Source: Thermodesulfomicrobium sp. WS
GTDB lineage: Bacteria; Desulfobacterota; Desulfovibrionia; Desulfovibrionales; Desulfomicrobiaceae
NCBI RefSeq assembly: GCF_027925145.1
Contig: NZ_AP027130.1
Span: 1,736,001 to 1,800,000, forward strand
Length of the DNA stretch: 64,000 nucleotides
Direction of reading: 5' to 3'
The notes beneath the pieces were generated by a model, which was not told where the DNA came from, made no database searches, and was given only the letters and a program-made list of their open reading frames with translations. Positions 13,592-15,985 of the stretch are shown piece by piece. Positions within the stretch are counted from its first letter, which is position 1, and every line of letters begins with the position of its first letter. Made by a program: the position numbers and the translations under genes.

Positions 13592-14401
13592 ATGCGGGTA
13601 CACGCCCTTGTGGTCACGGGATACGGGACCAATTGCGAACAGGAATGCGCCTACGCCGCCCAAAAGGCCGGCGCCGATGCGGTCACCATCGCCTTTTTCT
13701 TCGACCTCTTGGCCGAACGGGTGCGGCTGACGGACTTTCAATTCCTCATCCTGCCGGGCGGGTTTCTCGATGGCGACGATCTGGGCGCCGCCCAAGCCGC
13801 GGCCGTGCGCTGGCGCCATGCCCGCACCCACAGCGGCCAGAGTCTGGTGGACGACCTCGCCGCTTTCCTGGACAACGGCGGCATCATCCTCGGCATCTGC
13901 AACGGCTTCCAGCTGCTCGTGAAGCTGGGACTCTTGCCGGGCCTGGACGGTCAGCGCTTCGTGCGCCAGGTCTCCCTGGGCCACAACGATTCCGCCCGCT
14001 TCGAGGACCGCTGGGTCAGCTTGCGGATCGATCCGGCCTCGCCGTGCGTCTTCACCCAAGGGCTCGAAGGCATTCTGGAGATGCCCGTGCGCCACGGCGA
14101 GGGCAAACTCATCGCCGCCAGCCCGGAAATCCTCTCCCGCATCCAAGCGGATCACCTCGCCCCGGTGGCCTACTGCGACCCCGCCACCGGCCTGCCCACC
14201 CAGGACTACCCGGCCAACCCCAACGGCTCGCCCATGGGCATTGCCGGCCTCACGGACCCCACCGGCCGCATCTTCGGCCTCATGCCCCACCCCGAGGCCT
14301 TCAACCACTTCACCAACCATCCGCGCTGGACTCGGGGCGAACGCCCGCGTCTGGGGCTGGAAATCTTCGCCCGGGGCATCGAGTATCTGCGTACACGTTG
14401 A
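13592..14401 (+). CDS. purQ: PurQ-type phosphoribosylformylglycinamidine synthase glutaminase subunit
   Basis: A 269-residue class I glutamine amidotransferase. The catalytic triad is visible: nucleophile Cys in GILGICNGFQLL, and His-Pro-Glu in GLMPHPEAF. The N-terminus (ALVVTGYGTNCEQECAYA) is that of PurQ. In the two-subunit FGAM synthase it releases ammonia from glutamine for the PurL subunit. PurL and PurS are not in this window. It is slightly longer than typical short PurQ (about 225-235 residues). Confidence 0.88.
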   Translation: MRVHALVVTGYGTNCEQECAYAAQKAGADAVTIAFFFDLLAERVRLTDFQFLILPGGFLDGDDLGAAQAAAVRWRHARTHSGQSLVDDLAAFLDNGGIILGICNGFQLLVKLGLLPGLDGQRFVRQVSLGHNDSARFEDRWVSLRIDPASPCVFTQGLEGILEMPVRHGEGKLIAASPEILSRIQADHLAPVAYCDPATGLPTQDYPANPNGSPMGIAGLTDPTGRIFGLMPHPEAFNHFTNHPRWTRGERPRLGLEIFARGIEYLRTR

Positions 14402-14421
14402 CAACCAGAGCCCACCCCCGT

Positions 14422-14925
14422 ATGGACTCCTTCCCGTTGCACGGCACCGACCCTTGGGAACCCTTCATGGCAGAAGCCCTCAAGGAAGCCCAAGAGGCCG
14501 AGCGACTCGGGGAAGTGCCGGTGGGTGCGGTGGTGGTGCGTGAGGGAAAGATCCTCGCCCATGCCGGCAATCGGGTCATCACCCAGCACGATCCCACGGC
14601 CCACGCGGAGATCCTGGCCCTGCGCCAGGCCGCGGCGCGGGAAGGCAATTTCCGCCTTCCGGGATGTGTGCTCGTCGTCACTTTGGAGCCGTGTTTGATG
14701 TGCCTGGGCGCCATCATTCACGCCCGGCTGGCCGGAGTGGTGTTCGCCGCCCGAGACCCCAAGGCAGGCTGCCTGGGAAGCCGCATGCACAGCGCCGACG
14801 TCTCGTGGAGCAACCACCACTTCTGGGTGCGCGAAGGCGTGCTCGCCCAGCCCTGCAGCGCACTGCTCACTGCGTTCTTTGAATCCCGCCGATCCCTGCG
14901 GAGAGGTAGCGAAGCCCGGTCGTAA
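14422..14925 (+). CDS. tadA: tRNA-specific adenosine deaminase TadA
   Basis: A 167-residue zinc deaminase with HAE (zinc His and catalytic Glu) and EPCLMC (two zinc Cys), plus the VPVGAVVV start. TadA converts A34 to inosine in tRNA-Arg(ACG). The gene runs into the tRNA-Ser gene: the last nine codons lie inside the tRNA acceptor stem and D-arm. The alternative of a general nucleoside deaminase is less likely because of the length and the C-terminal FFxxRR tail. Confidence 0.92.
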   Translation: MDSFPLHGTDPWEPFMAEALKEAQEAERLGEVPVGAVVVREGKILAHAGNRVITQHDPTAHAEILALRQAAAREGNFRLPGCVLVVTLEPCLMCLGAIIHARLAGVVFAARDPKAGCLGSRMHSADVSWSNHHFWVREGVLAQPCSALLTAFFESRRSLRRGSEARS

Positions 14926-14995
14926 CGCGCTCGACTCGAAATCGAGTTACGGACTCATACTCCGTACGTGGGTTCAAATCCCACCCTCTCCGCCA
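14900..14995 (+). tRNA. tRNA-Ser(CGA)
   Basis: The acceptor GGAGAGG (14900-14906) pairs with CCTCTCC (14985-14991), followed by G73 and encoded CCA. Anticodon loop CTCGAAA gives CGA. The long variable arm (TACGGA/TCCGTA) and T-arm GTGGG/CCCAC confirm a type II serine tRNA. Its first 26 nt overlap the tadA coding sequence. A run of six T follows the CCA and may end transcription. Confidence 0.95.
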
Positions 14996-14999
14996 TTTT

Positions 15000-15210
15000 T
15001 TCCTTGCAACTCAACGACTTGATTCAATCTTTTCTCCAAGATCTCCGCTGGGGATAACCCTGGGGCAACCCGCGGATGGGGGCATCCCGCCATTTCAGGC
15101 AATACTTGACACCGCTCGCTCAACGGAAGGCGCGCCCTATGATGGGCCACTGTCCGACGGCGCAGGATATCCTCAGACGCGCCGCCGGGGTTCTGCCGGG
15201 ATGTGTATCG
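15000..15210. other. Non-coding debris downstream of tRNA-Ser
   Basis: No gene was recognised between the tRNA and the transposase fragment. A segment around 15215-15240 (TTTTTTGGACACG on plus) resembles the terminal end of an insertion sequence. Together with the fragment that follows it marks an old insertion at the tRNA 3' side. Confidence 0.4.
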
Positions 15211-15455
15211 GTCTACGGTTTTTTGGACACGTTTTTCCGCCACGTTTGCGGCCTGTTTCTGGATGGCCCGCACCGCTGACGGAGTCTTGGAGCCGTGGCG
15301 TCCAATGATCCATTCCCGGTTGTACGTGTCCTGGAACTCCAAGAGGGCGAGGCGGCCTTCACCGTGTCGAACCGCCGAATCCAGAGCAGGTTCTCCTGCA
15401 AGGTCCGAACGAACCGCTCCGCGATGCCGTTGCCTTGGGGCTCTCCCCTCTGTAC
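15211..15455 (-). pseudogene. Transposase integrase-core fragment, frameshifted
   Basis: Two minus-strand frames together give the C-terminal end of an rve-type transposase: GNGIAERFVRTLQENLLW (with the third catalytic Glu) in one frame, then LALLEFQDTYNREWIIGRHG in the other. A frameshift lies near 15357. The catalytic Asp region upstream is missing. It is therefore a dead remnant, most like IS481/IS3-type elements. It abuts the deaminase gene. Confidence 0.75.
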
Positions 15456-15481
15456 CAATGCCAGTAGACACCTGCAGGGCT

Positions 15482-15919
15482 TCAGACCCCGACGTCCTCG
15501 TTCCAAAGCTCCGGGTTTTCGGCAATAAATCGCTCCATCAGCTCGATGCAACGGCTATCCTGCAGCACCTGAACCTCGACGCCCCGCGAACGGAGCAGCT
15601 CTTCTTCGCCCATAAAGGTGCGGTTCTCGCCGATGATTACCTTGGGGATACCGTAGAGGAGAATCGCGCCGCTGCACATCGGGCAGGGTGACAGGGTGGT
15701 GTACAGTACCGATTCGCGATACACCTGCGCTGGCTGCCGCCCGGCATTTTCCAGGGCATCCATCTCGCCGTGCAGGATGGCACTCCCCTTTTGCACCCGC
15801 CGGTTGTGCCCCCGGCCGATGATCCGGCCTTTATGGACCAGCACCGCCCCGATCGGAATTCCACCTTCATCGTAACCCTGTTTTGCTTCATCAAACGCCG
15901 CCTGCATGAAAATGTCCAT
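15482..15919 (-). CDS. Cytosine/nucleoside deaminase family protein
   Basis: About 145 residues of the CDA fold with zinc motif HGEMDAL and SPCPMCSGAILLYGIPKVIIGE. The layout resembles yeast-type cytosine deaminase more than TadA. It probably deaminates a free base such as cytosine or guanine. The ATG at 15919 has GGAGGTG eight bases upstream, which favours it over an ATG five codons earlier. Base composition is visibly lower in GC than the neighbours. It has its own promoter-like sequence in the 160-nt gap below the permease gene. Confidence 0.88.
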   Translation of the reverse strand: MDIFMQAAFDEAKQGYDEGGIPIGAVLVHKGRIIGRGHNRRVQKGSAILHGEMDALENAGRQPAQVYRESVLYTTLSPCPMCSGAILLYGIPKVIIGENRTFMGEEELLRSRGVEVQVLQDSRCIELMERFIAENPELWNEDVGV

Positions 15920-15985
15920 ACAGCACACCTCCATGAATAGTTGAAGTCGTGTTCAGCGCAGACCATGCATCAGACATTAAGAGAC

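Follow-up and report, generated by a model that had tools for sequence, protein, structure and literature searches.

Introduction

Bacterial transcripts that carry both a message and a tRNA include secG-leuU and tufB-tRNA of E. coli, in which the coding region stops short of the tRNA and both products can be obtained from one molecule. The tRNA is freed from such transcripts by processing, with RNase P cutting at the mature tRNA 5' end. In mitochondrial transcripts, the cut can leave U or UA at the end of the upstream message, and a poly(A) tail then completes the UAA stop. The tRNA punctuation of mitochondrial transcripts is treated in the part of PMC5474008 available to us. Overlaps between genes on the same strand, according to the accessible part of PMC3887535, arise by stop-codon replacement.

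Here we describe a gene pair that resembles each of these systems and departs from each of them. In a 64,000-nucleotide stretch of DNA from Thermodesulfomicrobium sp. WS, hereafter the window, the gene for the tRNA adenosine deaminase TadA runs into a tRNA-Ser(CGA) gene and ends at a stop codon inside it. As in secG-leuU and tufB-tRNA, a protein gene and a tRNA gene would share one transcript from which the tRNA is freed by processing, but the tadA coding region, unlike theirs, continues into the tRNA. As in mitochondria, excision of the tRNA would determine where the upstream message ends; here, however, the cut would leave the C of codon 160, and C + AA specifies Gln, so a tadA message ending in ...CUG C could not be repaired by polyadenylation. 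As in the same-strand overlaps covered by the available part of PMC3887535, the upstream gene appears to have lost its stop and adopted one inside its neighbour. The pair differs from the overlaps described there in that the neighbour is a structural RNA and not a second reading frame, in that the captured stops are parts of a tRNA, and in that RNA processing would strip the captured stop from the message. The literature that we searched, mostly at the level of listings, yielded no account of a tadA-tRNA-Ser overlap, and the arrangement, although assembled from known parts, is true, recurrent and apparently unreported.

Results

The tadA reading frame ends inside a tRNA-Ser(CGA) gene

The tadA gene (14422-14925, + strand) encodes a tRNA adenosine(34) deaminase of 167 amino acids, as judged from the ORF translation and from the NCBIfam equivalog NF008113 ('tRNA adenosine(34) deaminase TadA'), whose curated cut-off of 150 bits the protein passes with 160 bits. 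Twelve PDB sequences match it at E<=1e-20, the top one being the tRNA adenosine deaminase 2b3j (3e-40), and the zinc and catalytic motifs HAE (H61, A62, E63) and PCxxC (P90, C91, C94) occupy columns that are invariant among eight TadAs. The last residue of the conserved core is R157 (codon 14890-14892), which is invariant in all 122 TadAs aligned. Twenty nucleotides upstream of tadA lies a purQ-like GATase gene (13592-14401, + strand; GATase_5, 278.6 bits), which from its spacing is probably an earlier gene of the tadA transcript. A second deaminase gene, of the cytidine/deoxycytidylate family (87.5 bits), is found nearby at 15482-15934 on the - strand; its product, with 72 bits where TadA requires 150, falls well short of the equivalog cut-off.

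The tRNA-Ser(CGA) gene (14900-14995, + strand), a class II tRNA gene with its CCA encoded, was identified by ARAGORN and by Rfam RF00005 (57.5 bits; gathering score, 29), with the CGA anticodon placed by ARAGORN at 14937-14939 (+ strand; position 38 of the tRNA gene). The predicted fold (-38.5 kcal/mol, z -3.71) has acceptor, anticodon, variable and T arms formed, and no second copy was found in the genome among 48 distinct tRNAs by ARAGORN and 52 Rfam matches. The tadA stop codon TAA (14923-14925, + strand) coincides with nucleotides 24-26 of the tRNA, in the D-arm. The two genes thus share 26 nt of the same strand (14900-14925, +), comprising the acceptor 5' strand and the first part of the D-arm, which the tadA frame reads as (R)RGSEARS-stop. 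The preliminary description had placed the tadA stop within the D-arm of a well-formed tRNA-Ser(CGA), and this is exactly what we find. It had also proposed that RNase P would cut the coding end of tadA. The position holds: the tRNA 5' end, and with it the expected cut (14899/14900, + strand), falls between nucleotides 478 and 479 of the coding sequence, one base into codon 160 (of 167); the cutting itself we infer from the established action of RNase P. Since the tRNA starts 7 nt after the end of the TadA core, the last eight residues of the protein are translated tRNA sequence, and they probably have no protein function of their own.

We considered whether the overlap could exist on paper only, with the real tadA product ending earlier or in another frame. 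Such an annotation effect would fit the lack of protein-level conservation of the tail between lineages, but the window sequence contains no in-frame tadA stop before 14923, the frame is kept to the same stop in three of three congeners, and the invariant R157 already brings the core to within 7 nt of the tRNA; we regard this explanation as highly improbable. The same overlap of 26 nt is present in all three genomes of the genus code, in which the other TadAs are 95% and 74% identical to that of the window, and this excludes sequencing error as its cause.

On the other side of the tRNA, a search of the window for a second copy of the tRNA 3' end, as an attachment site would have it (<=3 mismatches), returned the gene itself as the sole match, and a search for similar plasmids gave no match. 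Reading frames 3' of the tRNA (14974-15551) look by eye like pieces of an IS3-type transposase; the frame tested among them had no Pfam match. Among relatives, the 3' end of tRNA-Ser(CGA) resembles an integration site: phage integrase genes begin within ~175 nt downstream of it in two genomes (L040, L043), int-alpA RNA lies within a few kb of the tRNA in two genomes, and several assemblies break right behind it (contig ends L005, L007, L012 and L021), with L062 also among the integration-site-like loci.

Supported overlaps of protein genes with tRNAs are rare elsewhere

To set this overlap against a background, we inspected other tRNA genes. In the window's genome, 8 of 48 distinct tRNAs have a same-strand ORF of at least 80 amino acids entering their 5' end. 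Besides tadA, four of the tRNA-overlapping ORFs were put to Pfam and gave no matches, and real genes in other frames (serine dehydratase, RtcB) compete with the overlapping frames found before Leu(taa) and Asp(gtc). In this genome tadA is the sole supported tRNA overlap among the frames tested, a set that excludes those at Lys(ttt) and Gly(gcc). The rtcB gene of this genome, which encodes an RNA ligase (L152:25-1392), is itself followed by tRNA-Asp at +105 nt. In three control genomes, 55 of 104 tRNAs have an ORF that ends <=300 nt upstream or overlaps; five of these ORFs overlap the tRNA and one of the five is Pfam-supported (1 of 55 ORF-tRNA pairs), rough figures that come from the loci of the 30 best-scoring tRNAs per control genome and a crude ORF caller. 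A Pfam-supported protein gene overlapping a tRNA 5' end is therefore rare elsewhere in these genomes. The supported case in the control genomes is a short GIY-YIG protein gene in G255 (L208:1254-1538) that extends 38 nt into the 5' part of tRNA-Asn.

The overlap recurs in different reading frames

In 29 of the 30 loci looked at first, tRNA-Ser(CGA) lies on the same strand 3' of tadA, in one case as far away as +621. We then surveyed 122 species, one genome each, defining a pair as a tRNA-Ser start <=400 nt from the end of the TadA core. The survey comprised 51 of 61 relatives (G019, G020, G036, G039, G040, G055, G056, G058 and G059 gave only weak or partial TadA matches and, like G043, were left out), 31 genomes from a set of 199 and 40 from a set of 109 with a match, the extra genomes having been chosen on score and family without knowledge of their tRNAs. 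A tRNA-Ser follows tadA in 83 of the 122 species (81 CGA, 2 GGA). Within the order the pair is present in 56 of 82 species, with an overlap in 20; when one large family (f5) is set aside, it is present in 39 of 41, the exceptions being G003 (345 nt of contig after tadA, with no tRNA found) and G048 (tRNA at +621). Outside the order but in the same phylum, 27 of 40 species have the pair and 11 the overlap.

Among the 83 species with the pair, the tadA stop lies upstream of the tRNA in 52 and inside it in 31, the two states that stop-codon replacement connects. The preliminary description had named upstream stops in relatives, a recently extended tail and separate transcripts as findings that would count against its reading. 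Comparison of tadA C-termini yielded the first and marked the window's tail as a lineage-specific extension; separate transcripts, by contrast, are not supported by the sequence, since no promoter-like signal precedes the tRNA in the window or elsewhere in its genus.

Overlaps occur in 11 of the 29 family codes with the pair and come in seven lengths: 26 nt in the window's genus (3/3), 10 nt in its sister genus (14/14), 24 nt shared by six families, and lengths of 34, 49, 56 and 59 nt among four further families. Every one of them closes at a stop triplet belonging to the tRNA (TAG, TAA or TGA), and the TadA tails are the tRNA translated according to frame: the window's genus has RGSEARS, its sister genus ER, and the six families GEVPKxx (for example, GEVPKWS). 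The tails of families f41 and f56 are tRNA read through the anticodon region, and in these families the tRNA begins 5 nt inside the core, such that the tRNA sequence itself supplies the codon for the last conserved arginine. In the sister genus the frame is intact in all 14 genomes, including one with an in-frame codon indel. Many non-overlapping relatives have a TadA that ends at or just past the FFxxRR core, and the tail therefore looks dispensable. That the tail is translated tRNA, varying with lineage by frame, argues for loss of the stop codon with capture of a stop borne by the tRNA, which explains the overlap best.

A tree of the 83 TadA cores requires at least seven changes of overlap state, or 11 if each length is treated as a state, a count that does not separate gain from loss. 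The window's genus and its sister genus form one supported clade, in which the overlap may be old and may have undergone a change of frame. Repeated origin of overlaps in different reading frames fits the passive loss of an old stop, and we consider the origin of the overlap to have been mostly passive.

The tadA-tRNA-Ser adjacency is older than the overlap

Elsewhere in the phylum, outside the window's order, tRNA-Ser(GGA) and the bacterial SRP RNA often come next after the pair (SRP RNA in 11 of 20 loci searched), with dnaX after the SRP RNA in five of five loci tested. The resulting order in relatives, [tRNA-Arg(ACG)]-tadA-tRNA-Ser(CGA)-[tRNA-Ser(GGA)-SRP RNA-dnaX], also appears in other phyla; inside the window's order, SRP RNA was found near tadA in none of 30 loci. 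The scr gene of Bacillus subtilis we take to be that of the SRP RNA. The B. subtilis gene order yaaJ(tadA)-scr-dnaX-yaaK-recR, given in the available part of PMC10454642, resembles the outgroup relatives of the window in placing tadA before SRP RNA and dnaX, whereas the window has no SRP RNA here and retains just tadA-tRNA-Ser(CGA). When all bacteria were considered, nine of the 80 best named loci had a same-strand tRNA-Ser <=400 nt behind tadA, including records of Acidobacteria, Blastocatellia, Peptococcaceae, Archangiaceae and Desulfuromonas, with overlaps in L318 (57 nt) and L347 (10 nt); Beta- and Gammaproteobacteria, which contribute many of the 80, include none with the pair within 400 nt. 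Because the pair spans several phyla, the adjacency is ancient and the overlap is a derived state of it.

The preliminary description had suggested that the overlap could link a tRNA-modifying enzyme with its tRNA. This idea is weakened by the identity of the bacterial TadA substrate, which according to the part of PMC10454642 at hand is tRNA-Arg(ACG), and not the tRNA-Ser(CGA) of the overlap; tRNA-Arg(ACG) is encoded in the window's genome (ARAGORN). As a separate observation, six cases from several phyla (L098, L115, L107, L318, L326 and L329) have a same-strand tRNA-Arg(ACG) immediately upstream of tadA, 30-67 nt away from the first conserved residue of TadA, and in L120, L316 and L328 it lies upstream on the opposite strand. 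In total, it is within 330 nt of tadA in 9 of 202 species or loci.

Promoter-like signals appear at wide gaps

We compared a promoter-like score for the 75 nt before the tRNA with shuffles of the same 75 nt. With E. coli-like promoter frequencies, and with gap classes set after seeing the data, gaps of at least 40 nt gave a mean z of 1.41, with 15 of 30 genomes at p<=0.05 (15 of these 30 belong to family f5), gaps of 0-39 nt a mean z of -0.20 (1 of 22), and overlaps a mean z of 0.33 (3 of 31). The window itself has a p of 0.86, and it and its two congeners score under the shuffle mean. A consensus scan found no promoter-like site at 14200-15200 of the window, where the expected number of 0.1 makes for a weak test, and no terminator-like site after the window's tRNA. 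The scarcity of promoter-like signals where the tRNA abuts or overlaps tadA, together with their frequent presence at wide gaps, suggests that in packed lineages tadA and the tRNA would lie on one shared transcript.

Alternatively, a promoter in the 3' part of tadA could drive the tRNA while tadA messages end elsewhere, making the overlap inconsequential. The signals just before the tRNA in wide-gap relatives lend themselves to this reading, as does the sister genus (g4), which belongs to the overlap class yet has a mildly positive mean z (0.96 over 14 genomes), and in which 11 of the 14 genomes share a weak GAAAAT-like element located 15 nt upstream of the tRNA; an internal promoter may exist there. 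The empty scan of the window and the scores of the window and its congeners point the other way, and we judge separate transcripts to be unlikely.

Leader pairing does not distinguish the overlaps

A selected regulatory role was weighed against passive origin. Under such regulation, RNase P processing would destroy the tadA message, so that tRNA maturation sets TadA output, or heavy translation of tadA would limit tRNA-Ser(CGA), and the link would keep the overlap in place. The occurrence of the overlap in more than one third of family codes with the pair (11/29) and its fixation in whole genera (3/3 and 14/14) are compatible with this, as are two pairs predicted in the window between leader nucleotides C-1 and G-2 and the 3' GC of GCCA; in E. 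coli, the kcat/Km of RNase P drops at a threshold of two such pairs, according to the available part of PMC9433436. Such pairing is, however, about equally common in overlaps, where 22 of 30 have two or more pairs, and at gaps of at least 40 nt, where 19 of 28 have two pairs, counts from which five rows without a readable CCA end were left out (G053, G044, G027, G028 and G303), and we reject slowing of RNase P by leader pairing as a trait specific to overlaps. Moreover, the frames and lengths of the overlaps vary without pattern, most species with the pair (52/83) do without an overlap, and TadA has no known action on tRNA-Ser(CGA). A regulatory role is possible but unsupported, and selection for it seems to us quite unlikely. 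The earlier suggestion that the overlap serves to limit tadA is likewise unsupported, given the species without overlap and the repeated origins in different frames.

Discussion

The explanation that we favor, and consider on balance probable as a whole, combines stop loss in an old and tightly packed gene pair, a stop supplied by the tRNA, a shared transcript and an either-or fate for each RNA. In a tightly packed tadA-tRNA-Ser(CGA) pair, tadA would have lost its own stop and come to use one in the tRNA. Such tRNA-Ser genes offer UAG at nucleotides 8-10, UAA in the D-arm and others further in, depending on frame, and with the tRNA set against the last needed tadA codons a stop loss would be repaired at once. 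The tRNA appears to lack a promoter of its own, and both genes are most likely carried by one transcript. On this RNA, ribosomes may translate the 5' part of the tRNA as far as the D-arm stop and hold the tRNA unfolded; or the tRNA may fold first, upon which RNase P would cut its 5' end and leave a stopless tadA message for ribosome rescue. As the cut removes the stop and the ribosome holds the tRNA open, each RNA would give either TadA or tRNA. We infer co-transcription, cutting by RNase P and this either-or fate, as well as tolerance of the cost of the overlap because little TadA is needed. A bolder version, in which the overlap is a repeatedly evolved switch, ribosomes and RNase P compete for the 26 nt, and the balance between wobble editing for arginine codons and the supply of the serine tRNA depends on translation load and tRNA maturation, is in our estimation quite unlikely.

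With a stop borrowed from a tRNA, one RNA would serve two mutually exclusive products, and the recurrence of the arrangement over many families provides natural replicates in which competition between translation and tRNA processing may be measured. It also accounts for the odd tails of TadA proteins in several families, such as GEVPKWS and RGSEARS, which are translated tRNA and not domains. Finally, the conserved neighbourhood, with tRNA-Arg(ACG) directly upstream of tadA in some phyla, offers a clear lead to the genomic arrangement of tRNA editing and tRNA supply.
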